Shown: in pieces, positions 9,927 through 26,101 of the stretch
How the letters are laid out: every line of letters starts with the position of its first letter
Position numbering within the stretch: the stretch's first letter is position 1
DNA from: an uncultured Prevotellaceae bacterium
GTDB taxonomy: Bacteria; Bacteroidota; Bacteroidia; Bacteroidales; Muribaculaceae
Assembly: GCA_900317835.1 (NCBI GenBank)
Contig: ONIL01000034.1
Location: 1 to 51,967, forward strand
Length of the DNA stretch: 51,967 nucleotides
Direction of reading: 5' to 3'
Program-made: the position numbers and the translations under genes
The notes under the pieces: generated by a model
Database searches by the model: none
Told to the model about the DNA's origin: nothing
What the model saw: only the letters and a program-made list of their open reading frames with translations

Positions 9927-9992
9927 CACTATAGGGGAGTTTTAGAGCATTGGCAATCTGTTATTTATTAATTTGCTTATTATTAAAGATCT

Positions 9993-10760
9993 ATGAAGAA
10001 GAATAACTCATCCAATTCTAATAAAGCACTTAATGAGATGCTTGATGAAATGAGTGAGATGAATGATAAAGCATTAAGAACAAGTAGGAGAATAAAATAT
10101 GTATCGTTATTTGTTATGGTAATAACAATAATAACGGTTATTCCTTTGCTGTTAATATCTTTATCTAATCCAGAAAGTAAAAAGTTCTTTGATAAAGAAG
10201 ATATTAAATCAAGTATGCAAATAACCATTGAAAATGGTGGGGAACTGAGTAGCGTAAAACATATCTATGATAGACGTGAAAATAAAGAGATATTCATAGA
10301 TTTACTTACAGGCAGGAAGTCGAATTATTATGCAGAAGATTATCCTTTGTCAGATATTCTAAAAGATCTTTTAGTAGATTATTATAAACATCCAGAATCG
10401 AGTGACTCTACTTATCTTATTGCATTAAAAGAAATAATAGCGGAAAATGATAGAAAGAACCCTTTTGATATTTTAGAGGAAAATCAAAAATACAATTTTC
10501 AGAATATTCAAGAAAAGCTTGATTCAACATATGAAATAATATCACCTGATATTATAAAGATAGCAGACGAGTTAAATAATAAGAATCAGCTGGTAAACAG
10601 ATATTTAAATAAATCAGAATCAAGTTTCACAATCTCAATAATTGCTTTAGTTATATCTATTATCCTTGGTCTTATACAACTGTATCAAAACCATCTAACC
10701 TCAAGAAGAATAGGTAAGAGTGAGTCTATTGCAAAAAAGGGTATAAATCAAGATTCATGA
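9993..10760 (+). CDS. Two-TM membrane protein of unknown family, third gene of the ParA-SIR2 cassette
   Basis: A 255-residue, very Lys/Glu/Asn/Ile-rich protein. A hydrophobic segment (YVSLFVMVITIITVIPLLLI) lies at ~35-57 and a second (FTISIIALVISIILGLIQLY) at ~212-233. The central ~150 residues are hydrophilic and probably form one loop or soluble domain. Both short ends are basic (TSRRIKY, TSRRIGKS), which suggests a hairpin topology with both ends inside and the middle domain outside the inner membrane. I do not recognise the family. It follows the SIR2 gene by 66 bases with no terminator between, in equally AT-rich DNA, so it is likely part of the same unit. Confidence 0.65.
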   Translation: MKKNNSSNSNKALNEMLDEMSEMNDKALRTSRRIKYVSLFVMVITIITVIPLLLISLSNPESKKFFDKEDIKSSMQITIENGGELSSVKHIYDRRENKEIFIDLLTGRKSNYYAEDYPLSDILKDLLVDYYKHPESSDSTYLIALKEIIAENDRKNPFDILEENQKYNFQNIQEKLDSTYEIISPDIIKIADELNNKNQLVNRYLNKSESSFTISIIALVISIILGLIQLYQNHLTSRRIGKSESIAKKGINQDS

Positions 10761-10862: not shown

Positions 10863-10886
10863 GGGGTGGGATTGAGGGAATATGTG

Positions 10887-10894
10887 TATCTTTG
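10887..10894 (+). promoter_or_regulatory. -7 box (TATCTTTG) for the XRE-AIPR operon
   Basis: It matches TAnnTTTG. The initiation point would fall about 20 bases before the ATG at 10917. The -33 TTTG is absent (GGGG at that place), so the promoter may need activation or be intrinsically weak. Confidence 0.5.
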
Positions 10895-10916
10895 TGGGAT
10901 TACAACTGAAAAACCG

Positions 10917-11162
10917 ATGGAACGAAAACGATTGAACCGCCTGAAAGTTGTGCTAGCCGAGAAGGGTGTGACCAATAAGCGATTAGCGGAGTTGGTCGGA
11001 AAGGATCCCGCTATGGTTTCCAAATGGGTAACCAATACGGCGCAGCCAAATGTCGAGATGCTAATGCTCATCGCAAAAGTCCTGAACGTGAGCGTTGATG
11101 AACTGCTACGTACAGACGAGGAGTTTAGTCCTAGATTAAAGACTATTCAGATTGACCGATAG
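10917..11162 (+). CDS. XRE-family HTH regulator
   Basis: An 81-residue protein from the start MERKRLNRLK. An upstream ATG at 10866 exists in frame, but it would place the promoter box inside the gene. The helix-turn-helix is clear: LKVVLAEKGVTNKRLAELVGKDPAMVSKWVTNTAQPNVEMLMLIAKVLNVSVDELL. A short tail follows. It lies 47 bases before the AIPR gene and precedes the whole restriction-like cluster, the position of a controller protein in restriction-modification operons. It probably represses its own promoter through the palindrome upstream. Confidence 0.85.
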   Translation: MERKRLNRLKVVLAEKGVTNKRLAELVGKDPAMVSKWVTNTAQPNVEMLMLIAKVLNVSVDELLRTDEEFSPRLKTIQIDR

Positions 11163-11209
11163 GTTCAGTCAAAACCTTCATCATTGAGTATAATAAAACA
11201 CTAGATATC

Positions 11210-13564
11210 ATGGACGAGAATAATCAGTTTGATGATTTTAAGGAAGCGGATAGTTCCCAAGAGTATGTGAGTGAAGCTATCGGCGAGGTTTTCAAGAAAG
11301 AGATCAGCGAGGTCGAGCAGTTTAAAGAAGACCTCGATGACCAGCTCATCATGTTCGATAGCCCCAGGGACGAATTAACCAGCATGATCGTTGGTTACAT
11401 TCAGGGCATGGGCGACGTTGACCAGGTGAACATCTGCAGCTACGACAACGGCAAGGGCGTTGCTCTTGACGGTTGGGGCTTCAGCGGCGATGACGAGATG
11501 ACGTCAATTGACCTGTTCTTGACGGTCTATGTCGATCCCAACGCGAGCAAAAAGATATCGGCTACCGAGCTTGACCGCCATTTCAACTGGCTGGTGCGTT
11601 TCTACGAACAGTCTATCAATGGCACAATGCTCGGCAAGATTGATGATGTAAAGAGCGATTTGTATCAGGTCGCAGACTTGATACACAGCACTGATAAGAT
11701 TGACCGTGTGCGTTTGTTCTTGCTCACCAATGCCATTGCTCCAACGGCTTATGATAAGGACAATGCTGAGTTGAACGACGGGACCTCTTGTGAATATGTC
11801 ATCTGGGACGCCAAGCGAGTGATGCGTCAGGACAATATCTTGACGGGCAAAGACCCAATAGTGGTTGATTTTGACGCTGACTATAATTACCCGCTGCAAT
11901 GCATCAAGATGCCCGACGTCTCGGAGAACGTCGACTGCTACTTGTGCATCATTCCGGGTACGATTCTTTCTCAGGTTTACCACAAGTATCACCAGCAGAT
12001 CCTTGAGCAGAACGTGAGGACGTTCCTCCAGTTCAAGGGCGCTTCCAACAAGGGCATCCGTGATACGATGATTGGCCACACTGCAACTGCTGCCGAGAAG
12101 CGCAAAGGCATCACCGACTCGGCCCCCGAGCCTGATATGTTCTTTGCCTACAATAACGGTATCTCGACCACGGCATCCGAAATTGTTCTTCGTGACACCG
12201 AGCAGGGCCAGGAGATTGTCAAGATTAAGGACTGGCAAATTGTCAACGGAGGCCAAACGACAGCCTCCATCAGTGCGGTGCTCGGCATGAAGGGCGCTAA
12301 CGTCACTCAGCTGTCCAAGGTCTTTGTTGCCATGAAGGTTTCTGTCATCAAGAACAAGGACAATCAACCCACCATCGTCCAGCGCATTTCACGTTTTGCC
12401 AATACCCAGTCGGCAGTCAAGAAATCTGACTTCAACATCAATGAGCCCTTCTTGCAGGAGCTCGAGAACCAGTCCCGCCAGGAGTGGGCCATCAATACTT
12501 CAGGTAAGCCTGTGAGCAAGTGGTTCTTCGAGCGTACACGTGGCCAGTATCTGGACAAGGCCAAGCGCAATCCGGGCAAGGCCGCAGAGCGCGAGTTCTA
12601 TGCCGAGTATCCCAAGCGCCAGATGTTCGACAAGACCCTCTTGTCCAAGTTCATGATGGCATGGCTGCTTGACCCGGCCAGTGTCTGCAAGGGCGGTGAG
12701 AACAATTATGCCAAGTTCTTCACCCGCATGAAGTCAAACAACATTAGGTTTGACACTGTTACCTATCACCGCACTGTTGCCAAGTGCATCCTGTTCAAGG
12801 CCATTGACGCTTTTTATGGCAAGGACGGTATTGCTCTGCCTGGTTATAAGTCCAACATGGTGGCCTATACGCTCGCGGCACTGTCGCACCTGTCGAACAA
12901 GAAACTCGATCTGCTGAAGATCTGGAATGAGCAGTATGTCATTACCCCTTCGGTACAGAACGAGTTGACCATCGACATGATGAGCGTTTACGCTAAGCTC
13001 GTGTGCGGAGCAGAGCACATCACCTTCAAGGTGAAAGTGCCCTATAAGACACCCGAAGGTAAGTGGAAAAACCACTATGAGGTGCGTGACATATCCAAAG
13101 AGGATATTGAGAAGATCAAGGCAACAACCCTCTATCGGGTGATGGAACACGTCAAGAAGATAGAGCCGCTCATTTGGGATCACATCGTGACCGTCGATGA
13201 GGGCATCAACATCAACGAGTGGACCAAGGCTACCCGCTGCTGGGATGCGCTCAAGACCAAACTTGATAACGAGGGCCAGAAAGTCGCTATTCCAGCCAAG
13301 CTGATTTCGTCAGAGAGCGAAGCCGAGACTGAAATTAACGAAGGCCAGCAGCGCACCATCGACGAAGTGGCCACCTACGACAAGGCCATATGGTTCAGCA
13401 TTAACGCCTGGGCAAAGGAGACAAGCGCCCTTACGCCCCGCGAGACTTCGTTCATGGGCCAATTTGGTTACATGATCGCCCGCGGTCGTCCTTACACCTT
13501 CAAGCAGGCACGTTGGGCTCTCCAAATTCTGGAGAAAGCCCAAAATGCCGGGTGGCAAGAGTAA
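11210..13564 (+). CDS. AIPR-family (abortive infection phage resistance) protein
   Basis: A 784-residue protein. The family's core is easily seen: FFAYNNGISTTASEI at ~311-325, then IKDWQIVNGGQTTASI at ~340-355. Downstream is a segment with QRISRFANTQSAVKKSDF, also typical of AIPR proteins. AIPR was named from lactococcal abortive-infection proteins, and members are commonly found beside methyltransferases, helicases and ATPases in defence islands. Its biochemical activity is not settled. The gene is rather GC-rich, is separated from the helicase by 9 bases and starts the long operon. No signal peptide or TM segment. Confidence 0.85.
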   Translation: MDENNQFDDFKEADSSQEYVSEAIGEVFKKEISEVEQFKEDLDDQLIMFDSPRDELTSMIVGYIQGMGDVDQVNICSYDNGKGVALDGWGFSGDDEMTSIDLFLTVYVDPNASKKISATELDRHFNWLVRFYEQSINGTMLGKIDDVKSDLYQVADLIHSTDKIDRVRLFLLTNAIAPTAYDKDNAELNDGTSCEYVIWDAKRVMRQDNILTGKDPIVVDFDADYNYPLQCIKMPDVSENVDCYLCIIPGTILSQVYHKYHQQILEQNVRTFLQFKGASNKGIRDTMIGHTATAAEKRKGITDSAPEPDMFFAYNNGISTTASEIVLRDTEQGQEIVKIKDWQIVNGGQTTASISAVLGMKGANVTQLSKVFVAMKVSVIKNKDNQPTIVQRISRFANTQSAVKKSDFNINEPFLQELENQSRQEWAINTSGKPVSKWFFERTRGQYLDKAKRNPGKAAEREFYAEYPKRQMFDKTLLSKFMMAWLLDPASVCKGGENNYAKFFTRMKSNNIRFDTVTYHRTVAKCILFKAIDAFYGKDGIALPGYKSNMVAYTLAALSHLSNKKLDLLKIWNEQYVITPSVQNELTIDMMSVYAKLVCGAEHITFKVKVPYKTPEGKWKNHYEVRDISKEDIEKIKATTLYRVMEHVKKIEPLIWDHIVTVDEGININEWTKATRCWDALKTKLDNEGQKVAIPAKLISSESEAETEINEGQQRTIDEVATYDKAIWFSINAWAKETSALTPRETSFMGQFGYMIARGRPYTFKQARWALQILEKAQNAGWQE

Positions 13565-13573
13565 TTATCTGTT

Positions 13574-15235
13574 ATGAGGACTGACGAATATCTCGATCAA
13601 GAAATTGACCTGGTGGAGCCGTTTGACGGACCTGCCATTCAATTCAGCCACATACAGCCCGACGATACAGGACTGCGTCCCTATCAGTCGGCTATCAAAC
13701 ACGAGGTCTATAACCTGTGGGACAAGATGAACAATGTCATGCTTCAGATGCCCACTGGTACCGGTAAGACTATCGTGTTTACCTCCATTGTGCGAGATAT
13801 CCGTCGTTGGTGCATCAGCAACAGTCCTGATTCCAAGATACTCATTATCGCTCATCGTCGCGAACTGATCGCCCAGGCGAGCGACAAGTTGGGCAGCATC
13901 GTGCATGGCATCATCCAGAGTGGCATACCCATGAAGCTCAATCGTGCCATCCAGGTTGCCTCAATACAGACCTTCATGAGCCGCCGTCACTACGAGACGA
14001 TGCGCCGCGAGCGTTTCGACTTCATCATCATCGACGAGGCTCACCACAGCATGGCACCCGGCTATCAAAAGCTGTGGGAGATGTTCCCCAACAGCAAGAA
14101 GCTTGGTGTCACCGCCACACCGTGGCGCATGAGCCACAGCGGTTTTAGGACGTTGTTCAACGACATCGTCCTGTCGCGCAGCATCGAGTGGTTTGTCAAC
14201 AATGGCTACTTGAGTAACTATGACTACGTCTCGATCAGGCGTGACTCTGAGTTGCAACGGTCCATCAATTCGATTGACCGCTATGGCGTGGATGGCGACT
14301 ACCTCGAAGCGGAACTTAGCGAGATGTTCGACAAGGACAAGATCCGTGCTGAGTTGTTCAAGAGCTACAAGAAGTTCTGCGACGGCAAGAAAGGCATCAT
14401 CTATGCCATCGACCGTCGTCATGCAGCCAACATCCGTGACCTGTACGCCACCAGGGGCGTTGCCATCTGCATGATAGATGGCACTACGCCAGCCGAGGAG
14501 CGCAAGGAGATGATTGAGCAATTCAAGCAGGGCGAAATCCAGGTGATTGTCAACGTGAATATCTTCTCCGAGGGGTTTGATTGCCCCGACATCGAGTTTA
14601 TTCAGTTGGCAAGGCCTACCAAGTCCCTGGCGCTCTATCTGCAACAAGTGGGGCGCGGGTTGCGCATTTCCAAGAACAAGACCATCTCCATTATCCTGGA
14701 CAATGTGGGGCTTTACAACCGTTTCGGCACGCCCATGAGCAACCGTCACTGGCGCTACCACTTCGAGGGACATGATGGTGGTGAGGGCTATAACGATGGC
14801 ACAGGCATCACTCGTGACATCAGTTTCGAGGAGCATGACCGCACGCCCGACTACAGCGAGGATGACGAGGAAATGGTAGTTGTTGAGCATGCCGAGGGTG
14901 GTCAGCAGGTTCGCCCTAACGAAGCGAACCAGGCAGCCAAACTTGGAGACTTCAACATTTTCCGCAAGAACGGCTTGTATGGCATGTGTGACAGTCACAA
15001 CCGCACGATTATTCCGCCGATGTACGAGGACATGCATCCCTATTATCGTGGCCGCATTCCTTTCAAGCAGAATGGCCTGTGGGGCATCATGCTCAAGGAT
15101 GGCACCATCAAGGTAAAACCTAAGTATTACTACATCGGCCCGTTTATCGATGGCCGTGCCGAAGTAAGGAATACCGTTGATAGCGAACCTTACTACATTA
15201 ATGGAGATTCTAAAGAACTGACTATAATCAGATGA
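13574..15235 (+). CDS. SF2 (DEAH) helicase with C-terminal WG repeats
   Basis: A 553-residue protein. Helicase motifs in order: Q-motif region (LRPYQSAI), motif I MPTGTGKT (~60-67), motif Ia IIAHRREL, motif II DEAH (~154-157), motif III TATPWR (~181), and in the second RecA domain FSEGFDCPDIEFIQLARPT and QVGRGLR (motif VI, ~358). The arrangement resembles the helicase part of type I/III restriction and RAD25-like enzymes. Residues ~455-553 carry two WG-type repeats (NGLYGMCDSHNRTIIPPMYE and NGLWGIMLKDGTIKVKPKYY), unusual on a helicase. Its stop overlaps the next start by 4 bases (ATGA). It probably translocates on DNA for the cluster's restriction or AIPR function, which is inference. Confidence 0.85.
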   Translation: MRTDEYLDQEIDLVEPFDGPAIQFSHIQPDDTGLRPYQSAIKHEVYNLWDKMNNVMLQMPTGTGKTIVFTSIVRDIRRWCISNSPDSKILIIAHRRELIAQASDKLGSIVHGIIQSGIPMKLNRAIQVASIQTFMSRRHYETMRRERFDFIIIDEAHHSMAPGYQKLWEMFPNSKKLGVTATPWRMSHSGFRTLFNDIVLSRSIEWFVNNGYLSNYDYVSIRRDSELQRSINSIDRYGVDGDYLEAELSEMFDKDKIRAELFKSYKKFCDGKKGIIYAIDRRHAANIRDLYATRGVAICMIDGTTPAEERKEMIEQFKQGEIQVIVNVNIFSEGFDCPDIEFIQLARPTKSLALYLQQVGRGLRISKNKTISIILDNVGLYNRFGTPMSNRHWRYHFEGHDGGEGYNDGTGITRDISFEEHDRTPDYSEDDEEMVVVEHAEGGQQVRPNEANQAAKLGDFNIFRKNGLYGMCDSHNRTIIPPMYEDMHPYYRGRIPFKQNGLWGIMLKDGTIKVKPKYYYIGPFIDGRAEVRNTVDSEPYYINGDSKELTIIR

Positions 15236-16368
15236 GAACAGAAGAATATAGGATGGTCGATTTGTTCGCTGGCTGTGGCGGACTCAGCTTGGGCTTAGAA
15301 CAAGCAGGGTTTACACCATGGTTTGTGAATGAAATTGTGCCACAATTTGCCGAAACATACAAGTATAATCACCAATTAAGTGATGAGCACTACTTCATTG
15401 GCGATATTTCTGACCTCAATAAGACTATCAATAATTTTCAAGACCTCCTAACTGACATTACTCTTGTTTGTGGAGGGCCTCCTTGTCAAGGATTTTCTAT
15501 GGCGAACCGCCAAAGGATTTTAGATGATCCCCGCAATGGATTGTATAAGCAATTCCTTATCTTTCTTGGGCACATCAAGCCGAAATTCTTCATCATGGAG
15601 AATGTTAAAGGCATGATGAACAAAGTAGATGAGATTATTCATGACTTCAGCGTTTTTCTTGGCGAGGAATACGAGTATGACTTTGCGGTATTAAAAGCGC
15701 AAGATTTTGGTGTGCCCCAGAATCGTGAGCGTTTTATATTGATAGGCAACCGTATCGGCATTGACCCTCATGCTATCTTCAATAAAATTATGGAGCACAG
15801 AAGATCTCCATTCCTGCTGTGCAATGCTCTAGAAGGTTTGCCTCATCTCGGAGCAAAGACAGTAAAAGGGCAGGCGAATATTGAGAATGAGGTCTCTGGG
15901 TTTACCGTAAGGGATTTCGATTATGTACATAATGAGTTTTATCGGTTCATCAATGGTGATAGGAATATTACTAAGTTATATAATCACAAGAACCGATATA
16001 ACAACGAGAGGGATATCGAAATCTATCGAAGGTTGCCTCAAGGAGCGAATTCACTCCATGAGTCAATTGCTGATATTATGCCGTACAAACGTAGAAACGG
16101 GATATTCAAAGACAAGTATTTCAAGTTGATGGAGAACCAAATTTGCAAGACAATTACATCTCATATGAAATTTGATTGCAATATGTACATCCATCCATGG
16201 GAAGCTCGTGGCTTGAGTCCGCGTGAAGCTGCAAGGATACAAACATTCCCTGACGATTATGTGCTCATGGGGGCGCAAAACGCCTGGTATGCTCAAGTCG
16301 GCAATGCTGTTCCTGTTAAATTGGCCCAAGCGATTGGCGAAGGTATTATGTATTTTTTGAGACAATGA
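15232..16368 (+). CDS. C5-cytosine DNA methyltransferase 1
   Basis: A 378-residue Dcm-type enzyme. Motif I VDLFAGCGGLSLGLEQAG (~9-26), catalytic motif IV GGPPCQGFS with Cys ~85, motif VI ENVKGM (~123), motif VIII QNRERFILIG and motif X QVGNAVPV near the end are all present, so it should be active. It would methylate C5 of a cytosine in a specific site. It overlaps the helicase by 4 bases and the second methyltransferase by 4. Tandem C5 methyltransferases upstream of McrB/McrC-like genes are the signature of LlaJI-type systems, where each enzyme protects one strand of an asymmetric site. AT-richer than the helicase and AIPR genes. Confidence 0.92.
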   Translation: MRTEEYRMVDLFAGCGGLSLGLEQAGFTPWFVNEIVPQFAETYKYNHQLSDEHYFIGDISDLNKTINNFQDLLTDITLVCGGPPCQGFSMANRQRILDDPRNGLYKQFLIFLGHIKPKFFIMENVKGMMNKVDEIIHDFSVFLGEEYEYDFAVLKAQDFGVPQNRERFILIGNRIGIDPHAIFNKIMEHRRSPFLLCNALEGLPHLGAKTVKGQANIENEVSGFTVRDFDYVHNEFYRFINGDRNITKLYNHKNRYNNERDIEIYRRLPQGANSLHESIADIMPYKRRNGIFKDKYFKLMENQICKTITSHMKFDCNMYIHPWEARGLSPREAARIQTFPDDYVLMGAQNAWYAQVGNAVPVKLAQAIGEGIMYFLRQ

Positions 16369-17435
16369 AGCATTTAGAATTATTCTCTGGTATTGGTGGT
16401 TTTCGTCGGGCAATGGATTTAGTCGGACGGGACCTTGGTTGTCTCATATCAACGATTGGTTATTCCGAAATTGATGCCAAAGCCATTGCGACATATCAAG
16501 CTAATTACGATACTAACAAAGAACTGCAAATAGGAGACATAGTCCTATTTACATCGGATGAAGAAAAGATTAAGTCGTTACCTGATTTTGATTTATTATC
16601 AGGTGGCTTTCCCTGTCAAACGTTCAGTTCAATGGGTGAACAAGCTGGGTTTAATGAAGACAGGGGACAGATGTTCTTCCGAATCATGGACATTGTCAAT
16701 GTGAAACGTCCCAGGTACATTCTCTTGGAAAATGTGAAAAACCTCGTTAATCATGATCGAGGAAGGACGATGACCAGGATTATCATGGAATTGGAAGGGG
16801 CCGGATATATCGTTCATCACGATGTGTTCAACACTAGTGATTTTGGGTTGCCTCAGACGCGCAATAGAACTATTATATTTGCCAGATTAGAGGAAGCTGG
16901 AGAGTTCAGTTTCACGGCAGAGTTGGTCAAAAATGTTTTTGACCAGATGAATAGGCAGGAGAGTTCCCTCTATTTCTTTAACTCGACATTAGACATTCTC
17001 GCAGAAAAAGTTTCTGAGAAATACTATTTGTCAGAAAGAATTAAACCGACTATTCTTGCCGACGGAAGTGCAAAGTTCAAAGCAAATTCTGAGATTGACA
17101 AGCCAATCGCAAGGCCATTAACAGCGTCGATGCACAAAATGCATCGAGCTTGTCAAGACAACTATTATAGTGATTTATTCATTCAGAGTAAAGGAGATCA
17201 ACGTCCTTGTACCTGGATGAGTAAGGAAGAATTAGCACAGATTCCAATTAGGAAGCTGACACCCTATGAAGCATTTTTACTTCAAGGATTTCCCGCTTCA
17301 TTTGTTGACCGGAGTAGAGCTGCCGGGGTTTCAGATGGTGCGCTATACAAGCAAGCAGGAAATGCAGTCAGTGTGAATGTGATCTATGCTGTGTTGTATT
17401 ATCTCATTAAGAGCAACATCATTCGTCCAAGATGA
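16365..17435 (+). CDS. C5-cytosine DNA methyltransferase 2
   Basis: A 356-residue Dcm-type enzyme, clearly different in sequence from its neighbour. Motif I LELFSGIGGFRRAMDLVG (~4-21), motif IV GGFPCQTFSSMGEQ (catalytic Cys ~83), motif VI ENVKNL (~122), motif VIII PQTRNRTIIFARL and motif X QAGNAVSVNVI are all seen. The variable target-recognition region lies at ~190-300. It probably modifies the opposite strand of the same asymmetric site as enzyme 1, as in LlaJI, or a second site. The 4-base overlaps on both sides indicate translational coupling with enzyme 1 and the following small gene. Confidence 0.92.
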   Translation: MKHLELFSGIGGFRRAMDLVGRDLGCLISTIGYSEIDAKAIATYQANYDTNKELQIGDIVLFTSDEEKIKSLPDFDLLSGGFPCQTFSSMGEQAGFNEDRGQMFFRIMDIVNVKRPRYILLENVKNLVNHDRGRTMTRIIMELEGAGYIVHHDVFNTSDFGLPQTRNRTIIFARLEEAGEFSFTAELVKNVFDQMNRQESSLYFFNSTLDILAEKVSEKYYLSERIKPTILADGSAKFKANSEIDKPIARPLTASMHKMHRACQDNYYSDLFIQSKGDQRPCTWMSKEELAQIPIRKLTPYEAFLLQGFPASFVDRSRAAGVSDGALYKQAGNAVSVNVIYAVLYYLIKSNIIRPR

Positions 17436-17932
17436 AAGTTGTTAAGTACATAAAACGGCAGGATAGCGGTTGGAAGCAAGCCGCAGGGTGCTCAGGCGAG
17501 ACAAGTATTAACTTGTCCAATGAGATTTTAGACTTTTTGTCGAGTGGTATGGTAGACTTGGGCGAAGAATGTGGACTTACTTTTAATATCTATAGAGAGG
17601 ATTATGTCACAGCATTATCTTTCATTACTTCGCAGTTGCCTTTATATCGAAGTACTTCGCACACTAGCGAGTTGATAAGAGAAAATGATGCAATCTTTAA
17701 TAGACTGAGCTCAAGCATTTATGCTTTCTTTGGAGAAGAAGATATCAAGCCATATACCGTGACGCTTTATCGTCGTAAAGATGGAAGGATATACTTAAAA
17801 GGGTTAAAGCAAAAGGGCTTTACCATTCGAGATTTTCTTGTGGAAATGAGTTCTGCTCTCGAATTCACTATGACATTAGATGGGTTTGACCTTAGAGTGA
17901 TTTCCGCAGTATGCGAAGGAGACCTGGATTGA
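17432..17932 (+). CDS. Small protein sharing a motif with the McrB-like N-terminus; possible B3-like target-recognition unit
   Basis: A 166-residue soluble protein with no recognised family. Its N-terminal segment (DSGWKQAAGCSGETSINLSN, followed by EILDFL) parallels the first residues of the next gene product (SRDTSPSGQTHIGLSEKVLTFL). Both read S-G-x-T-x-I-x-L-S, two residues, then an aliphatic residue and L-x-F-L. EcoRII-N/B3-like DNA-binding domains carry comparable S/D-x-x-G-x-x-x-G-I segments, so this may be a stand-alone specificity subunit. The rest alternates strands and short helices (YTVTLYRRKDGRIYLKGL). It overlaps methyltransferase 2 by 4 bases and precedes the McrB-like gene by 16. 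The B3 idea is tentative. Confidence 0.6.
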   Translation: MKVVKYIKRQDSGWKQAAGCSGETSINLSNEILDFLSSGMVDLGEECGLTFNIYREDYVTALSFITSQLPLYRSTSHTSELIRENDAIFNRLSSSIYAFFGEEDIKPYTVTLYRRKDGRIYLKGLKQKGFTIRDFLVEMSSALEFTMTLDGFDLRVISAVCEGDLD

Positions 17933-17948
17933 TTAAAATTTATATGTT

Positions 17949-20900
17949 ATGATCAACTTATATAAAGAATACGCAATCGGAGTGAAGAAACTCTCAGACG
18001 CTGAATTGTCGAGAGATACTTCACCAAGTGGACAGACACACATTGGATTATCAGAAAAAGTTCTCACTTTTTTGCCAAATACACCAGAGCAACGTGAGGG
18101 CATTTTGATATACAATAAGTCATGCTCAATGGTTGAATGTGCTTTCAGTAAAATAGGCAACGTAAGAAGCACCAAAATTGACACATCAACCTCAAATCCC
18201 GTCAAGTCGGTTGTAAAGCAGATTCGGAACATTGCTAGTAACAATTCATTTGATTGGTTCTTAGTTTGGTTTGCATTAGACCATCAAGTTCCAGTTTTCT
18301 GGTTGTTTAATAGTAATTCGACAGAGTACAATGATTTCTCAAAAATTATCGATCTCAGCAAGCAAACAACGGTCTATAAGGAGAAGTCTAGTGATGATGA
18401 GTATTTCAAGATACTTATGCTGATTCGTTCTTTAAATAAGCTTGATCAACTTATTACGAAGAAATATTTCGATGCAAAGGAAAATTTACTTTTGGCTGCA
18501 AGTTCCGAGCATCGTACTTTCGTACACCTTGCTCTTGATCATTTCAGAGGGACGAACCATCTTGACCCATTGCTGGAATATTTTAGTACTCAAGAACCTA
18601 ATTCTCCAATTTGCGTAACTGATAATGATAAGTTCAAGCTCTCTAATATGTTCATCAATACGGATGAACAAGAGATAACTTCTAGAAATGCAGGCCATAG
18701 CAAAAGATGGTATACTGACCCATTCAGTATCGCAGGTAAAGATTATTATCTTTATGTGGATTGGTATCCAGGCCCTGATAGGAATGGTAATGATGTTCAG
18801 TTGATGATTCCTCATTTTGTTGAACTCATCCATGCATGTTATGGACAAAAATATGAGTATAGAAACTCCCAAGGCACACATGAGTTGTGGCTTGTAAATA
18901 CCCCGTCTCAAATGGCACCAGTTATTGATAATCATGATATGTTCTCAAAGTTAATTGAGAAATATCTTAAGGAGTTGCCCACATTTTGGGAAGATGAAAA
19001 GTATAAATGGGAGGCTGTAAAGCAGTTCCAGGAACAATGGGATATCGATGCAGAAGATTTTTCTTCAATGTTTACCGAGGCAACAAGCAAGCACTATAAC
19101 CTTTTAGCCTCCAATATGTATTATCCTATTGGAATGGTTCAGAGTTTAGCTGCCTTTGACGAAGACAGAACTCGTAATATGTTCCGAGTACTGTTTGACG
19201 AAAGCAAAGATTTGACCGAACGGATCAAGTACTTTTGGGATGAAGCAGATGACATGAGGGAAAAGGGCGATGAGAAATGGTTCAATCATTATCAAGACCT
19301 ACATGCCGTCAGTGTATATCTAACTTTCATGTATCCCGATAAGTATTTCATCTATAAGTACACGGAGTTAAGAAACAGCATCAAGGCTCTAGGAGATGAC
19401 TTCTCGTTCCCGGGGAAGACGCCACCGAGTTTCTATAGCAAAGTTGTAGATTATTGTGAGGGCCTTCGCGTTCGAATCGCTGCCAATCAAGCGGTTTGCA
19501 ATGAGTTGGACAAACTGATAAGTAGCAGTCCAGATTGCTATGAAGACAAGCACCGTAATATCGCTACGGTTGACTTCATCTACTATGTTGGTAAGCGCCT
19601 TAAAAATTTGCCTACTGATGTTTCAACTGGTGAGGACAAACCTATCATAGAACCTGATGAGAACTCCAGGTACTGGATCTACGCTCCTGGCGAGGGTGCC
19701 AGCATGTGGCAGTTGTGCCAAGATAAGGGCATCATGGTGCTCGGTTGGGGCGATATTGGCGATTATAGCCAATATACCTCACAAGAAAAATTGATTGCCG
19801 ATATGCAAGCTACTTATAACCTCTACGAAAAGAACTTCATGAATAGCTCTTTGGCTGTATGGCAGTTCTATAAAGACATGAAGCCAGGTGATGTGATTTT
19901 CGTGAAACAGGGAAGGAGTAAGATTCTTGGCCGTGGCGTGGTTCAAGGCGGCTATCAATACGATGAGGAACTGAATGAGGAATTTCGCAGTTTCCGAAAG
20001 GTAAATTGGACTGACATTGGCAAATGGGATGCTCCATTCAATCTCGCGGTTAAAACTCTCACACGAATAGGTGTGACTGAGAATGACAAGTTGCTGATTA
20101 AACAGCTTAATGATTTATTCATAACCGAAGAAAAACCGGTGCTCGAACAAGTGCCATTCTCTATCGATAAGATGATAGAGTACATTGATAAGACAGGCTT
20201 GATTTATTCGCCGTCGCTTATCAAGCGTTTTGCCTTCTCGTTGTTGACTAAGCCGTTTGTCATTTTGAGTGGTTTGGCAGGCTCGGGTAAGACGCAGCTG
20301 GCCATCACGTTTGCCAAGGCGTTGGTCGAGAATCGTAAAAGCCAGCTATGCACAGTGAGTGTGGGTGCCGACTGGACCAACCGCGAGCCGTTGCTGGGTT
20401 TCCCGAATGCATTGCAGTCTGCCCAATATGTACGGCCAGAGAGTCGTGTGCTCGACCTGTTGATTGAAGCCAATAAGCCCGAGAATAGTGATAAGCCCTA
20501 TTTCCTCATCCTGGACGAGATGAACATGAGTTACGTAGAACGTTACTTTGCTGACTTCCTCTCGGCGATGGAGAGCAAGGAAGCCATTCCATTGTGGAAT
20601 GGTTGTACAGACCTTGATGAGGATGATGAAGAATGGGATGACACGCCCACGAGCATCAAGTTGCCGAGCAACCTGTTCATCATCGGCACCATCAATGTGG
20701 ACGAGACCACCTATATGTTCTCGCCCAAGGTGCTAGACCGTGCCAACGTGATTGAGTTCAAGATATCGGCAGACGAGATGTCGAGTTTCCTTGAAAACAT
20801 GAAGGATGTGAACCCCGATAACATCATCGGCAAGGCCGCCAACATGGCCGCCAGCTTTGTCGAGATTGCCAGCAATAACGACCTCAAGAAAGAACCTGGT

Positions 20901-21284
20901 GCGATAGATACCCTGAAGAAGTTCTTCGGTGAGTTGAAGAATGTCAATGCCGAATTCGGTTACCGCTCTGCCACCGAGATCTTCCGTTTCATCTGCCAGG
21001 CCAAGAACAATGACGATACAGCAGTCAAGATTACGGATGACGAAATCCTGGATGCTGCCATCGTTCAGAAGCTGCTGCCCAAGCTGCACGGTTCCCGCAA
21101 GAAACTGGATCCCGTGCTCAAGCAGCTGTGGAAACTGTGTTTCAAGAAAACAGATTCCGAGTCTGAGTTGGGTATTTCCAGCGACAAATTGCCCAAGGCC
21201 GTTTTCAAGGAGAGTGCTGACAAGATCTGGAGGATGTATGAGTCCGCCAGTGCCAATGGTTTCACCAGCTTTGCCGAAGCATAA
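17949..21284 (+). CDS. McrB/LlaJI.R1-like NTPase with N-terminal specificity domain and internal EVE domain
   Basis: A 1111-residue protein. Residues ~1-190 hold a probable DNA-recognition domain (LSRDTSPSGQTHIGLSEKVL), in the place where LlaJI.R1 has a B3-like domain. Residues ~250-560 are an alpha-rich linker found in Bacteroidetes McrB-like proteins. Residues ~572-705 are an EVE/PUA-type domain (SRYWIYAPGEGASMWQLCQD, MVLGWGDIGDY, FYKDMKPGDVIFVKQG, KILGRGVV), a fold that can read modified bases. The McrB-type AAA+ NTPase follows: Walker A GLAGSGKT (~774), Walker B FLILDEMN (~852), and IIGTINVDETT (~914) in place of the usual N-T-A-D-R-S. It should assemble as a ring that drives the DUF2357 nuclease encoded at 22863. 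The 5' half is AT-rich and the 3' half GC-richer, suggesting a domain swap. Confidence 0.85.
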   Translation: MINLYKEYAIGVKKLSDAELSRDTSPSGQTHIGLSEKVLTFLPNTPEQREGILIYNKSCSMVECAFSKIGNVRSTKIDTSTSNPVKSVVKQIRNIASNNSFDWFLVWFALDHQVPVFWLFNSNSTEYNDFSKIIDLSKQTTVYKEKSSDDEYFKILMLIRSLNKLDQLITKKYFDAKENLLLAASSEHRTFVHLALDHFRGTNHLDPLLEYFSTQEPNSPICVTDNDKFKLSNMFINTDEQEITSRNAGHSKRWYTDPFSIAGKDYYLYVDWYPGPDRNGNDVQLMIPHFVELIHACYGQKYEYRNSQGTHELWLVNTPSQMAPVIDNHDMFSKLIEKYLKELPTFWEDEKYKWEAVKQFQEQWDIDAEDFSSMFTEATSKHYNLLASNMYYPIGMVQSLAAFDEDRTRNMFRVLFDESKDLTERIKYFWDEADDMREKGDEKWFNHYQDLHAVSVYLTFMYPDKYFIYKYTELRNSIKALGDDFSFPGKTPPSFYSKVVDYCEGLRVRIAANQAVCNELDKLISSSPDCYEDKHRNIATVDFIYYVGKRLKNLPTDVSTGEDKPIIEPDENSRYWIYAPGEGASMWQLCQDKGIMVLGWGDIGDYSQYTSQEKLIADMQATYNLYEKNFMNSSLAVWQFYKDMKPGDVIFVKQGRSKILGRGVVQGGYQYDEELNEEFRSFRKVNWTDIGKWDAPFNLAVKTLTRIGVTENDKLLIKQLNDLFITEEKPVLEQVPFSIDKMIEYIDKTGLIYSPSLIKRFAFSLLTKPFVILSGLAGSGKTQLAITFAKALVENRKSQLCTVSVGADWTNREPLLGFPNALQSAQYVRPESRVLDLLIEANKPENSDKPYFLILDEMNMSYVERYFADFLSAMESKEAIPLWNGCTDLDEDDEEWDDTPTSIKLPSNLFIIGTINVDETTYMFSPKVLDRANVIEFKISADEMSSFLENMKDVNPDNIIGKAANMAASFVEIASNNDLKKEPGAIDTLKKFFGELKNVNAEFGYRSATEIFRFICQAKNNDDTAVKITDDEILDAAIVQKLLPKLHGSRKKLDPVLKQLWKLCFKKTDSESELGISSDKLPKAVFKESADKIWRMYESASANGFTSFAEA

Positions 21285-21331
21285 GAAGTGTGGTAGTTGT
21301 GTTTATAAATTAAATTAATCGTTGCTGTATT

Positions 21332-22774
21332 ATGAATTGGAAAGAAAAAGCCTTGATTTTGCTTGATAAAAGCTTGAAACCAATTCCTCAAGAGCTCAAT
21401 GAGATTGATTGGAAAGGCGGCCTGTCTGACGATAAAGAACGTTTGGCACAACACATTTGCGCATTTTCTAACCTAATAGGGGGTGGCATTTTGGTTTTTG
21501 GAGTCAATAATGATGCGTCGTTTGCAGATATGACTCAAGAATTGATAGAACGGACTGTTTTAAGGCTTGATAATATTGCTCAAAACAGGATGTTCATGCC
21601 TATTCAAATTGAGCATGCGGTTATGGAATATGATGAGCATCCCTTACTGTTTATTTATATTCCGGAGTGTCGCGAAAAACCGATGCGCATGCGTGGTTCA
21701 GATATATACAGCAGCTATATACGCTCTGCAGGGCACACTGTCAGGATGTCGCCCAAGCAGGCGAGATTGTTAATTGCCGAGTCAGAGGGAGTCAATTATG
21801 AAGAGCGTATTGCAAAACGAGGATTGACCTCAGATGAGGTGTTAAGCTTACTAAATTATAAGAAACTATTTGAGTTATTAGAACATCAATTGCCCTCCAC
21901 GACTGAAGGTATCATAAGTTTTATGGAAGAACTTGGAATCTGCCATCAAGAAAGCACAGGTTATTCCATTACAAATCTAGGAGCGCTTCTGTTTGCCAAT
22001 ACGCTGTCTTCCTTTGAGTCTATGAAAGGTAAGGGAGTAATTGTCAGAAGATATGTAGGCAATAACAACAGACAATTGCTTTTAGAACAAGAAGGAGCGA
22101 TGGGATACGCAGTAGGTCTAGAAGGACTGATTGGTTTTGTGATGAAAAATACTGGGACAGAACACATTGATGGTGCGGTAAGGGAACTAATCCCGACCTA
22201 TCCGCGAGTTGCCATCCGCGAGTTTGTTGCCAATGCGTTGGTGCATCAAGATTTTGCAATCAGAGGAATGCCCATCACAATCGAAATCTTTGCCAATCGA
22301 CTTGTTATTACAAATCCAGGGTATTCTCTTAACGATGTTAATCGTTTAATTGATCTGCCACCTCACTCCCGCAATGAAGAGATGGCTCAATTAATGCTGC
22401 AACTGGGCCTATGTGAGCGACGCGGAAGTGGCGTTGATCGAGCTGTTGAAGCAATGGAGAGAATGCTATTACCAGCATACAAAGCAGAAAGCGGTAATGA
22501 TTTTACTCGAGTAACTCTATATCCGAAGAAATCTTTGTCTGATTTAACAAAAGAGGAACGTATAGAAGCTTGTTATCAGCATTGCTGTCTTGCCTATGCT
22601 GACAATGAGACAATGAATAATCAATCTGTCAGAGCGCGTTTCGGATTAAATAAGAATCAGGGAACAATAGCATCGCACATTATCGCTGATACTGTTGCCA
22701 AAGGGTTGATTAAACCGTCCAATCCAGATTCTGAGTCAAGAAAATTTGTTTCTTACGTGCCGTTCTATGCGTGA
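21332..22774 (+). CDS. AlbA_2 (Schlafen-type) / HATPase_c_4 ATP-binding protein
   Basis: A 480-residue protein. Residues ~15-145 form the AlbA_2 domain: LAQHICAFSNLIGGGILVFGVN, then IPECREKPMR and YIRSAGHTVRMSPKQ. Residues ~285-385 match the HATPase-like C-terminal part: VAIREFVANALVHQDF, ITIEIFANRLVITNPG, and LGLCERRGSGVDRA. The last ~80 residues look like a winged helix (NQSVRARFGLNKNQGTIASHII). Such proteins are widespread as presumed transcription regulators, and AlbA_2 domains also occur in defence loci with possible nucleic-acid functions. It is inserted between the McrB-like and McrC-like genes, which normally adjoin. AT-rich relative to both flanks. Confidence 0.8.
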   Translation: MNWKEKALILLDKSLKPIPQELNEIDWKGGLSDDKERLAQHICAFSNLIGGGILVFGVNNDASFADMTQELIERTVLRLDNIAQNRMFMPIQIEHAVMEYDEHPLLFIYIPECREKPMRMRGSDIYSSYIRSAGHTVRMSPKQARLLIAESEGVNYEERIAKRGLTSDEVLSLLNYKKLFELLEHQLPSTTEGIISFMEELGICHQESTGYSITNLGALLFANTLSSFESMKGKGVIVRRYVGNNNRQLLLEQEGAMGYAVGLEGLIGFVMKNTGTEHIDGAVRELIPTYPRVAIREFVANALVHQDFAIRGMPITIEIFANRLVITNPGYSLNDVNRLIDLPPHSRNEEMAQLMLQLGLCERRGSGVDRAVEAMERMLLPAYKAESGNDFTRVTLYPKKSLSDLTKEERIEACYQHCCLAYADNETMNNQSVRARFGLNKNQGTIASHIIADTVAKGLIKPSNPDSESRKFVSYVPFYA

Positions 22775-22850
22775 TTTTTATCTTCACGGGAAATCTATAA
22801 TTTATATAAGTAGCTTATAATCAGTACGTTTTTATCTTCGCAGAAAATCC
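22775..22850 (+). repeat. Imperfect direct repeat upstream of the McrC-like gene
   Basis: The string TTTTTATCTTC-(A/G)-C-x-G-x-AAATC occurs at about 22775-22795 and 22829-22850 in the 88-bp gap. TATCTTCG differs by one base from a TAnnTTTG box, so these could be promoter-like or regulator sites that give the nuclease gene separate control. Confidence 0.4.
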
Positions 22851-22862
22851 AAAGCCATTAAG

Positions 22863-25208
22863 ATGAAGGAACTGGAGTATCTTAAAATACCGGTTGAGGT
22901 CGAAGGGGGCAACGTCATCACATTGTTTATCGACCCTCAAAACAAGAACAAGGCTAAACTCTATGAGTTGGAGTCGCCCTCGGCTGGTGAGTATCGTTAC
23001 CAGCTGATGGAGGGCTGCAGCTATCAGTATGAGTTTGTCGGTAAAGAAGATGAAGTATACCAGTTCCAAAAAGAGGATGAAATCATCACGTTCAATAGAT
23101 CCAGGGATCGCCATCCCAATATGGGTACCATTACCACTGGTATCTATGTGGGGCAGTTAAGCCTGTGGGTCGTGAACCGCAAGACAGGCAGTCGGTGTGG
23201 CAGGGTGAACCTGGAAATCCGCAGTACCAAGTCGGACTATGAAAGCGACTATCGCCACATGCTTGACGACATCGCCGAGTACTACACAGACTTAGTGCTG
23301 CAGCAAGGATCGCCAGTGACTCAGCAGCTGAAAATTGATGCGAACAGCTCGTCCAAGACGCTGTATCAGCGCTTCTCGTTTGTGCGTTCTATCGTGGACA
23401 GCGATGCGTTCAGTGAGGCCGTCCACAAGATCATTTCCAATCCTATCAGGAAATGGACTGAAGCCAATATTGAGAAAAACATTGTTGGCGTTAGGCGGTT
23501 GTCCAGGAAGAACATCCGCCAAATAGCCTCAGATAGAGACAGGTTGCCACTGAACAGCAGCATGAGGTGCAAAATGCCATATGGGCTGGATAGCGTGCCC
23601 CGCACCATCGAGGTGGAGTACAAGCGTGACACTATAGACAATCAGGAGAACCAGTTCGTGAAGTTTGTGCTGCGTACATTCTCGAACTTCTGCGCCGAAC
23701 TGAAGTCGTTCAAGAATGCTTCTGACCGTCTCAAGGCAGAGGCAGATTTGACTATCGAGCAGCTTTCGTCTCACCTTGAGAACCAGTTCTTCCGCCAGAT
23801 ATCCATGCCGACACTTATGAACATGAACAGTCCCGTCCTGCAGCGCAAGGAGGGATACCGTGAAGTGTTCCAGGCGTGGTTGCTATTTGACCTGGCCGCC
23901 AAGTTGAACTGGGATGGAGGAGATGACGTTTACGAAGCCGGCAAGAAAAACGTTGCAACACTCTACGAGTATTGGTTGTTCTTCAAGCTGCTGGAGCTCG
24001 TCAGCGAGTTCTTTAACATTGATCCACGTTCCAAGGAAAAGCTCGTTGCACTTGATAGCAATCGTATCAACCTCAATCTGAAACAGGGAAGAACCAGGAT
24101 GGTTTATGGCCAGCAAGAGACCTTCTCTCGCGTGCTCAATGTGGCATTCTACTATAATAGGACGTTCAATAAGGTTGATGAGAAAGAAGACAGCATTCAC
24201 AGAGCAGGGAGCTGGACGATGCCCATGCGCCCCGACTATACGCTGTCGTTGTGGCCTGGAGAAATCACTCAAGAGGAAGCAGAGAAACAAGAACTCATCG
24301 TTCACATCCACTTTGATGCCAAGTACCGCCTGGACAAGGTGCTGCTTGACAGCAACGAGTACGATGTGAACGAAGAAAAACGCCAGCAGGAACTCGGCGT
24401 TTACAAGCGAGCTGACCTACTGAAGATGCACGCCTATAAGGATGCCATCCGCAGGACAAGCGGAGCCTATGTGCTCTATCCTGGCACCGAGAACAAGGAA
24501 ATCCACGGTTTCCATGAGATCGTGCCTGGTTTGGGCGCATTCAGCATCCGTCCAGGACACTGGCAGCAGGACTCCTTCTATCTGAAGCAGTTCCTGGCTG
24601 AAGTGAAAGCCCACCTCATGGACCGCACCTCTCAACGCGAGAAACTGTCTTACCATCAGTTTGACATTCACAAGAAGCCTAATCCATCTATGATGATGGA
24701 GAACGTCCCTGAGCCCGTAGGCGACAATCGTGACTTCCTGCCTGGCGAGGCCTCAGTCATTGTCGCTTACTATAAAGACCAGCGACAGTTGGACTGGATT
24801 CTCGAGAATCATTTATACAATCTTCGGGCTGGTTTGGATAAAGGCTCTATCGCTCTTGAGGGAGAGATCATTAATGCCCGATATGTACTGCTCTACAATG
24901 ACAAAGAGGCAACCCATATGATTCGCATAAGGCGAAAGGGCCCCAAGGTTTACACCAGAGCTCAACTGATCAGTATGGGCTACCCTCAATATTTAAAAGA
25001 GAGCACATCAGAAGTTGACTTTGAGCGTGAGGAAAAAGAAGCCAATAGAATTTACCTGGTTTTCAACCTTTATAAGGACAACAGTTGCGAAAAAGAGTAT
25101 CAACAGTATAAATGGGATGCTGTCGCCCTTGCAGGCAAATTCACAAGAATCGGCCGCTCTTTCCCCATCAGCCTGGTTGACCTGCTAAAAAAAGCCAAGC
25201 AACGATGA
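22863..25208 (+). CDS. DUF2357 / McrC-like PD-(D/E)XK nuclease (LlaJI.R2-like)
   Basis: A 781-residue protein. The N-terminal half matches the DUF2357 pattern of McrC-like and LlaJI.R2 proteins (RSIVDSDAFSEAVHKI, VEYKRDTIDNQENQFVKFVL, LYEYWLFFKLLELV). A nuclease core follows: RPDYTLSLWPGE (Asp ~457) and, after a spacer, ELIVHIHFDAKYRLD with the D-A-K pair at ~485. These are the acidic and lysine positions expected of PD-(D/E)XK enzymes. Residues ~520-600 continue the fold (MHAYKDAIRRTSGAYVLYPG), and the C-terminal ~170 residues are uncharacterised. It should be the DNA-cleaving subunit acting with the NTPase at 17949. It ends the rightward cluster and faces the excisionase-integrase genes. 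Confidence 0.85.
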   Translation: MKELEYLKIPVEVEGGNVITLFIDPQNKNKAKLYELESPSAGEYRYQLMEGCSYQYEFVGKEDEVYQFQKEDEIITFNRSRDRHPNMGTITTGIYVGQLSLWVVNRKTGSRCGRVNLEIRSTKSDYESDYRHMLDDIAEYYTDLVLQQGSPVTQQLKIDANSSSKTLYQRFSFVRSIVDSDAFSEAVHKIISNPIRKWTEANIEKNIVGVRRLSRKNIRQIASDRDRLPLNSSMRCKMPYGLDSVPRTIEVEYKRDTIDNQENQFVKFVLRTFSNFCAELKSFKNASDRLKAEADLTIEQLSSHLENQFFRQISMPTLMNMNSPVLQRKEGYREVFQAWLLFDLAAKLNWDGGDDVYEAGKKNVATLYEYWLFFKLLELVSEFFNIDPRSKEKLVALDSNRINLNLKQGRTRMVYGQQETFSRVLNVAFYYNRTFNKVDEKEDSIHRAGSWTMPMRPDYTLSLWPGEITQEEAEKQELIVHIHFDAKYRLDKVLLDSNEYDVNEEKRQQELGVYKRADLLKMHAYKDAIRRTSGAYVLYPGTENKEIHGFHEIVPGLGAFSIRPGHWQQDSFYLKQFLAEVKAHLMDRTSQREKLSYHQFDIHKKPNPSMMMENVPEPVGDNRDFLPGEASVIVAYYKDQRQLDWILENHLYNLRAGLDKGSIALEGEIINARYVLLYNDKEATHMIRIRRKGPKVYTRAQLISMGYPQYLKESTSEVDFEREEKEANRIYLVFNLYKDNSCEKEYQQYKWDAVALAGKFTRIGRSFPISLVDLLKKAKQR

Positions 25209-25511: not shown

Positions 25512-25823
25512 CTATAATCTGGTGCCGACAATCCGCTCGATGTCGCTTTTGCGATAACGGCGTTTACCTCCAATCTCCACTTTCTTGAGTACTCCACTCT
25601 TGTCCCACCGATACAGTGTCATTTTCGACACATGTAGCAGTTTTGAGGCTTCGTCAAGAGTGATTAATACATCAGCTTTTGCGGCTGCTTCTGCCTCAAA
25701 CATAGCGATAGACTTGGCCCCGAGAAGGATTTCCTCGGCAAATGCTTTCAGGTCTCTACCTGAGAGTTGAAAGATGACGTTTGGATGTTCGTCAATTAAT
25801 GCGTTCAAACTTAAATAATTCAT
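25512..25823 (-). CDS. Excisionase-family HTH_17 protein
   Basis: A 103-residue protein from the preferred start at 25823 (MNYLSLNALIDEHPNVIFQL). The frame runs to 25907, but that part covers a large inverted repeat and has an unlikely sequence. The N-terminal helix region (LKAFAEEILLGAKSIAMFEAEAAA) precedes a C-terminal helix_turn_helix_17 domain (VLITLDEASKLLHVSKMTLYRW, then KKVEIGGKRRYRKSDIERIVG). This is the standard layout of Bacteroidetes mobile-element HTH/excisionase proteins that precede or follow a tyrosine integrase. It probably binds the inverted-repeat region just upstream. Confidence 0.8.
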   Translation of the reverse strand: MNYLSLNALIDEHPNVIFQLSGRDLKAFAEEILLGAKSIAMFEAEAAAKADVLITLDEASKLLHVSKMTLYRWDKSGVLKKVEIGGKRRYRKSDIERIVGTRL

Positions 25824-25840
25824 AGATAATAAAATAAAAA

Positions 25841-25981
25841 CGTGAACCGTTGCACCTAAAGTCGAGGCACTTAGGATAGCCTTATCGACGATGCAAAAGC
25901 GGTTCACGCCTATAGAGCGAGAACCACTATGCAGCCCTGTCGATAATTCAAAAAGTTCCTAAGTTTTCGACTTTAAACAGG
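25841..25981. repeat. Large imperfect inverted repeat upstream of the excisionase gene
   Basis: The left arm (about 25854-25910) contains TAAAGTCGAGGCACTTAGGA, TTATCGAC and TGCAAAAGCGGTTCACG. The right arm (about 25915-25981) holds the complements in reverse order: AGCGAGAACCACTATGCA, GTCGATAA and TTCCTAAGTTTTCGACTTTA. Three blocks match around a centre near 25911, with small indels between. CGTGAACCG at 25841 adds a second, nested pairing with CGGTTCACG at 25900-25908. It lies between the integrase and the excisionase genes and may be a site for Xis/Int or a nicking enzyme. Confidence 0.65.
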
Positions 25982-26101
25982 AGCATAATGTTTCTGTATA
26001 ACCCACAATGTTTTGTCACTCGCAGTGGAATGACGTGGCAAATATACACAATATCTGAGAAATACTGTGCGCCTGCCAGAAGAATTATGATGATATGAGG
26101 G

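Follow-up and report, generated by a model that had tools for sequence, protein, structure and literature searches.

The closest described systems to the operon reported here include the following. In the LlaJI restriction-modification (R-M) systems, whose relatives include BsuMI and LlaI, one operon encodes two 5-methylcytosine (5mC) methyltransferases, an McrB-like specificity protein, R1, and an R2 protein with a PD..D/ExK motif (PMC1459862). In the methyltransferase-associated McrBC systems, an McrB-like GTPase with a shortened NxD signature is encoded near methyltransferases, and the McrC partner is known under aliases that include DUF2357, PDDEXK_7, and RE_LlaJI (PMC11090510). Reports of AIPR proteins in R-M operons go back to 2008 or earlier (PMC2292703), and the literature covered gave no biochemical role for AIPR. 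Both AIPR within R-M operons and McrBC linked to methyltransferases have thus been published, each separately. Here we analyze contig ONIL01000034.1 of an uncultured Prevotellaceae bacterium, a gut member of the Bacteroidales (assembly GCA_900317835.1; 51,967 nucleotides, all of it hereafter 'the window'), which carries both in a nine-gene operon: an XRE regulator, AIPR, a RadD-like superfamily 2 (SF2) helicase, two C5 methyltransferases (M1 and M2), a small protein, R1, an AlbA_2 protein, and R2 (Table 1). A literature search, mostly outside subscription papers, yielded no description of this combination or of a stand-alone reader.

The operon resembles LlaJI in having two C5 methylase-family genes, for which 5mC activity is predicted, and an R1 with a putative N-terminal reader part and an McrB-like NTPase. 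It differs from LlaJI in having AIPR and a helicase at its head, a separate reader-like gene, and an AlbA_2 insert, in having a DUF2357/PDDEXK_7 protein as R2, and in having the NxD motif in R1. The LlaJI arrangement proposed in an earlier, sequence-only reading of this DNA is borne out as regards the two C5 methyltransferases, the McrB-like R1, and the McrC-like R2; strict LlaJI membership is not supported by the R2 family or by the R1 motif. Comparison of R2 with Pfam returned no LlaJI family at E 0.05, with no LlaJI protein included as control. A plain LlaJI assignment is insufficient, since extra genes are present. The operon resembles the NxD branch of methyltransferase-associated McrBC in having an McrB-like GTPase and a DUF2357-PD-(D/E)xK partner, but differs in its further components, AIPR and Schlafen occurring 0 times in the main text of PMC11090510. 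Membership in the MZA systems was rejected on the basis of AIPR score (270 bits, under the NCBIfam MzaE cut-off of 1050) and of the Pfam content of the operon. The presence of two methyltransferases in the operon favors R-M over type IV action.

The set recurs in other genomes. A scan of 84,980 species genomes for M1 relatives, performed with exact peptide patterns, gave 146 stretches, of which the best 80 were kept. Among these 80, three loci, L108 (Bacteroidales metagenome-assembled genome, MAG), L114 (Segatella copri), and L148 (Prevotella MAG), carry AIPR, helicase, M1, M2, small protein, and R1 in the order of the window, with 64-67% identity to the window in AIPR and 72-76% in helicase. 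The R2 of the window is kept in L148 (60%) and L108 (68%); in L114 the NTPase part of R1 differs, and the protein in the place of R2 differs as well and matches no Pfam family. A fifth layout, L172 (genome G563), was obtained in the helicase search: its AIPR and helicase are 53% and 63% identical to those of the window, and its helicase is followed by one methyltransferase (28% to M2) and then by three proteins of 211, 711, and 775 aa. The second of these three is an AAA protein; its AAA part, like the 775-aa protein, matches counterparts in L114 and L104 at 40-54%. The layout AIPR-helicase-methyltransferase-small protein-R1-R2 holds in L172 with other specificity genes. In a sixth AIPR-helicase locus, on a 7.4-kb contig (L173:980-7176, - strand), a protein with Mrr_N and Mrr_cat domains sits between AIPR and helicase. 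In five of the six loci (window, L108, L114, L148, and L172), AIPR-helicase is accompanied by one or two methyltransferases, by a small protein that stands alone, and by a pair of R1 and R2 genes. The conserved order in three further genomes, together with the same layout in a fourth, rules out a chance neighborhood of defense genes, and AIPR and helicase at the operon head, which the sequence-only reading had singled out as foreign to LlaJI, are a real, recurrent extension.

Co-occurrence, by which the sequence-only reading had proposed to judge the single-system idea, is asymmetric: 63 of the 66 loci in which M1 comes first in the gene order have no AIPR-helicase in the stretch fetched, and AIPR-helicase without R-M genes is seen nowhere among the six loci except in L173, at a contig end. 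In 57 of the 66, no AIPR lies beside M1-M2 in the stretch fetched. We conclude that the operon set is rare and patchy in distribution, because matches were few among genomes of the order, the family, and the genus. Of 393 genomes of the order, 19 had an R2 match and 19 an AIPR match (E <= 1e-10), and these two sets, from the proteins that the sequence-only reading had named as joint anchors, have only the window's own genome in common; the small protein matched in two of the 393, its own and one at E 9e-4. At E <= 1e-60 the helicase had matches at 9 places, spread over 8 of 397 family genomes; among 101 genomes of the genus, its own was the only one with a match. Among plasmids, 55 records matched the helicase at E <= 1e-40, the best-ranked being 41% identical, and two plasmid helicase regions (one from Segatella copri, one cyanobacterial) had no annotated AIPR in either; the second R2 family, of the L114/L172 type, was present in one Pedobacter plasmid record. 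A single-protein AIPR query gave no match in viral contigs, and an AIPR alignment query gave ten loci there, of which L184-L188 look MZA-like on visual inspection of the sizes and order of their open reading frames (ORFs).

Within the recurrent set, different genes have different histories. In the AIPR tree (38 rows) the window, L108, L114, and L148 form one clade (support 97) with L172 as its sister (100), and in the helicase tree (12 rows) the five loci form one clade (100/100), without resolution of the four inside it. The M1 proteins of the same four loci are scattered in the M1 tree (47 rows), and their grouping in one clade is rejected (approximately unbiased test on a quick tree, p-AU 0.039); because these M1 proteins do not form one clade, M1 at least seems to have been exchanged, and the methyltransferases have probably been exchanged between flanking genes that stayed. 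Pairwise identity is even for AIPR, helicase, and M1 (64-77%), whereas R1c and R2 drop to 18-22% in comparison with L114. Because the clades of AIPR and helicase hold while M1 scatters and the family of the McrBC-like arm changes in two of the five loci, the stable core of the loci, as judged from these trees, appears to be AIPR-helicase and not the part that resembles LlaJI.

The R1-R2 arm itself has McrBC-like features. R1 contains what we take to be Walker A and Walker B motifs, and R2 what we take to be PD..DxK; R1 matched PADLOC PDC-M26A (1.3e-46) and, at residues 576-688, PDC-S02 (E 9e-15), and by phmmer matched the McrB structures 6hz4, 6ut6, and 7vsr (E 2e-4). R2 gave no match in PDB. 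The EVE domain attributed to R1 by the sequence-only reading was not confirmed: no EVE family was returned by Pfam and no useful PDB match for residues 570-730, a stretch that PDC-S02 covers. In L114 and L172 the R1/R2 proteins are of a different pair family, and the putative McrBC-like arm has, on this family assignment, certainly been exchanged among AIPR-helicase loci. Because the McrB motif takes the NxD form (TINVD) in the R1 of the window and the NxxD form in the R1 of L114, predicted arms of both McrB branches that PMC11090510 describes are used with AIPR-helicase.

These results bear on the possibility that the operon encodes one machine, in which AIPR and helicase would be accessory subunits of R1-R2 and the small protein a second specificity subunit, so that an asymmetric site could be read on each strand. 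The R1/R2 pair is present in all five complete AIPR-helicase loci, the gene overlaps are tight, and two reader copies would fit a site that is asymmetric and carries the marks of two methyltransferases. However, AIPR-helicase remains in L114 and L172 although the R1/R2 family differs there. Furthermore, in 18 other loci fetched for order-wide R2 matches, in 16 of which an R1-like AAA protein adjoins R2, neither AIPR nor helicase was found near R1-R2, and in L116 and L117 AIPR stands beside M1-M2, yet neither AAA nor R2 was found. We consider the one-machine arrangement somewhat improbable.

The arms found after M1-M2 vary more widely. Arm counts cover the 66 M1-first loci (L149-L162, 14 of the 80, have a different gene order and are excluded) and, being based on local-profile scoring, are lower bounds. 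A reader with a nuclease-like protein occupies the reader slots in at least 29 loci and AAA with R2 in at least 38 (37 by local profiles plus L111, which local profiles scored as armless, yet which has a DUF2357/PDDEXK_7 gene and also matches AAA); at least 10 loci have both, and each occurs also alone, some one-arm loci being truncated by the contig end (for example, L091, L132, and L137). Six loci have no complete arm: L097, L109, and L146 have <3 kb of contig remaining, and L115, L122, and L124 have AAA, with R2 not found. As a separate observation, L089, L098, L119, L126, L129-L135, L137-L141, L143, and L147 carry a compact set, from several phyla, in which M1-M2 is followed by a reader-like protein of ~350 aa with a PD-(D/E)xK-like second half; the set looks like a three-gene R-M system, and an McrBC arm was not found there, some of these loci lying at contig ends.

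The small protein may link these reader slots to AIPR-helicase. It could be assigned to neither a Pfam nor an NCBIfam family, and PADLOC gave a single weak match (E 0.0074). An alignment of 24 relatives (25-70%) places it, by sequence, in the same family as the putative reader domains fused to the N-terminus of R1 in relatives. In the tree, from which 4 weaker rows were omitted, the stand-alone small proteins of four loci form one clade (100/99), apart from 19 longer domain-bearing proteins that include those of L108 and L148, and the small protein stays with AIPR-helicase in four of five loci. The 211-aa protein of L172 has no blastp match to the window small protein and is 39% identical to the N-terminus of its own 711-aa R1. 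Residues 1-335 of the window R1 are 33-44% identical to the ~350-aa reader proteins of M1 loci. The AlphaFold2 (AF2) model of the small protein has a predicted local distance difference test (pLDDT) score of 95, and searches of PDB by profile and fold gave nothing significant, the top-probability match being a plant B3 domain (0.28, E 1.2).

The reading that we prefer, tentatively and at slightly less than an even chance, is that the operon is a composite R-M operon in which two restriction arms share one methylation mark. Beyond the observed gene content, order, clades, reader homology, and arm swapping, we infer each biochemical step as follows. M1 and M2 would each methylate one strand of a short site that is probably asymmetric, as suggested by the two predicted 5mC enzymes and by analogy with LlaJI. 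In arm 1, the small protein, as stand-alone reader, would bring AIPR and helicase to the unmethylated site, where the helicase would travel on DNA and AIPR would gate or perform nicking or nucleotide hydrolysis. In arm 2, the N-terminal reader of R1 would locate the site, the McrB-like NTPase ring would power translocation, and R2 would cut. The AlbA_2/HATPase protein may cleave tRNA or stop the cell as a back-up when both arms fail, and the XRE regulator would tune expression.

In the AF2 model of AIPR (pLDDT 80; predicted template modelling score, pTM, 0.51), residues 52-173 form a core with the order helix-strand-strand-strand-helix-strand. This is the PD-(D/E)xK order. In a Foldseek search the top probabilities among the 50 matches listed were for MspJI (0.99), FokI (0.87), and BspD6I (0.82), with a best E of 0.066; a profile search against PDB gave nothing useful. 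The modeled AIPR N-terminus weakly resembles a restriction endonuclease, and the AIPR domain, which bears the NGGQTT motif, follows it. Residues conserved across 18 AIPRs are NGGQTT, N398, Q400, D407, and E441-R442. The helicase scores 149 bits against NCBIfam RadD, under the cut-off of 720, and has what are presumably the helicase motifs GTGKT, DEAH, TATP, and GRGLR; M1 and M2 have what we take to be the PCQ and ENV motifs. As a side observation, in L068:3680-11553 AIPR comes right after a large helicase and a protein with an MrfA Zn-binding domain, a pair that we take to be reminiscent of DISARM-like helicase pairs.

Another possibility, raised by the sequence-only reading, is a two-layer arrangement, in which R1-R2 would restrict and AIPR, with AlbA_2, would mount an abortive response upon failure. 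The family name points to such a response, an abortive role here being suggested only by names and by the literature: AbiU1/AIPR has been tied to R-M, with a HEPN toxin suggested (PMC3506569), and near BREX loci, Schlafen RNase + mini-kinase + wHTH proteins have been given the role of back-up effectors (PMC12839542). However, the best-probability matches of AIPR, weak as they are, are restriction enzymes, its helicase and reader-like companions would be superfluous for an abortive toxin, and AlbA_2 is optional. A protein with AlbA_2 and HATPase_c_4 lies between R1 and R2 also in L108 (23% identical to that of the window), the same two Pfam domains recur in L112, flanked by AAA and R2-like genes, and in L034, directly behind R2 (the profile was seeded with L034 and L108, so that their profile matches are by construction; Pfam confirms both), and none lies between R1 and R2 in L148, L114, or L172. 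AlbA_2 is therefore not a fixed part of the system, being missing there in three of four other loci; in our reading the AlbA_2/HATPase protein is an optional back-up. We consider the two-layer arrangement unlikely.

Relatives of the helicase raise the further possibility that AIPR-helicase acts in modification, as a regulator or a helper, and not in cutting, in parallel with the reported restraint of phosphorothioation by DndB, described as a negative regulator (PMC3506569, PMC10853773). In L174, L175, L176, and L179 the helicase relative adjoins a Pfam DndB-family protein with a DGQHR motif, and a D12 adenine methyltransferase (Pfam) lies beside it in L175 and L176, with a split one, judged by eye, in L179; these four helicase and DndB-family sets are a possible parallel R-M type. 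But the DndB-like partners bear a D..E-x-K stretch and have weak nuclease-family matches, one of them above the Pfam cut-off (NERD, L179), and the absence of AIPR from most M1-M2 stretches likewise argues against a role in modification, which we consider very unlikely.

Several points weigh against the composite reading. The complete AIPR-helicase loci number five in all. The Foldseek E-values of AIPR for restriction enzymes are 0.07-0.5, with none <0.001, such that the fold match is not significant, and its N-terminus has no (D/E)xK conserved across the 18 AIPRs. For M2 of the four loci (48 rows) one clade is not rejected (p-AU 0.099), leaving methyltransferase exchange only partly supported. 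That the small protein serves AIPR-helicase instead of R1 is suggested only by phylogeny and by analogy of slots. Finally, although kinship of AIPR with DndB has been stated (PMC3506569), hhalign showed no similarity of AIPR, full length or trimmed, to the DndB-like helicase partner, a DGQHR protein, with a shallow 4-row profile, and because of this result the equivalence of AIPR and DndB-like proteins as helicase partners is a lead only.

A broader proposal, which we regard as possible though on the doubtful side, is that AIPR, RadD-like helicase, and stand-alone reader form an undescribed restriction module, in which the reader, being sequence-specific, would load the translocase and AIPR would be the effector. 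Such a module would be licensed by any methyltransferase sharing the reader's specificity and would plug into McrBC-like arms of both McrB branches; in related helicases AIPR would be swapped for a nuclease-like DndB-family protein, with adenine methyltransferases.

The gene content and the single strand are as the sequence-only reading had claimed, with Pfam backing XRE, AIPR, helicase/WG, two C5 methyltransferases, AlbA_2/HATPase, and DUF2357; all nine genes are intact ORFs. The claimed joins were likewise found, one 9-base gap followed by three 4-base overlaps from AIPR to the small protein. The XRE gene is present, but the start proposed for it, 10917, is an internal ATG. A small HTH gene lies upstream of AIPR in four other loci as well, recognized by blastp in L114 and L148 and by Pfam in L108 and L104.

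Table 1. Genes and domains of the operon, with positions in the window.
Feature	Position	Strand	Evidence
XRE/Cro-CI type regulator, first gene of operon	10866..11162	+	Pfam HTH_3 1.6e-12
AIPR protein, MzaE relative	11210..13564	+	Pfam AIPR_N 1.9e-24, AIPR 3.6e-72; NGGQTT motif
RadD-like SF2 helicase/translocase with two WG repeats	13574..15235	+	Pfam ResIII 3.9e-28, WG_beta_rep 9.2e-15
C5 cytosine methyltransferase M1	15232..16368	+	Pfam DNA_methylase 4.7e-66
C5 cytosine methyltransferase M2	16365..17435	+	Pfam DNA_methylase 7e-70
Small protein, putative stand-alone site reader	17432..17932	+	Same family as N-terminal domains of R1 in relatives; DNA reading inferred
R1, whole gene	17949..21284	+	Weak AAA in Pfam; McrB-like by PADLOC and PDB
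R1 residues 1-335: putative second reader domain (~1-160) and domain common to other reader-AAA fusions	17949..18953	+	
R1 residues 336-1111: middle region, PDC-S02/possible EVE-like domain, NxD-type McrB-like AAA	18954..21284	+	
Schlafen AlbA_2 and HATPase_c_4 protein	21332..22774	+	Pfam SLFN_AlbA_2 4.5e-13, HATPase_c_4 6.4e-19
R2, DUF2357 and PDDEXK_7 nuclease, McrC-like partner of R1	22863..25208	+	Pfam 3.4e-36 and 3.9e-28

Inside the operon, GC content is 0.51-0.52 in AIPR/helicase vs. 0.37-0.41 in M1-M2-small protein-R1n. Because L108, L114, and L148 show a similar profile, these steps are no evidence of recent assembly, and recent patchwork assembly was dropped as an explanation. Upstream, at 8057-10760, a ParA-like ATPase, a SIR2_2 protein whose PADLOC matches are ThsA-like, and an ORF resembling a membrane protein stand in a row with GC 0.28-0.35 vs. 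0.47 for the window, and may be a separate defense operon. Directly after R2, on the opposite strand, 25512-27463 (-) encodes an HTH_17 protein and a tyrosine integrase, relatives of which lie upstream of M1 in L123, a hint of a mobile unit.

The operon constitutes a natural experiment, in which AIPR, helicase, and small reader-like protein persist next to an McrBC arm that varies and methyltransferases that probably do so too, and it makes the role of AIPR directly testable in a defined operon. The layout seems to show how bacterial defense modules are plugged together from known kinds of parts, with two putative DNA-cutting arms and a possible suicide back-up sharing one methyltransferase pair. 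The results suggest that the building blocks of R-M systems are reader-effector arms that can be exchanged behind a single methylation code.
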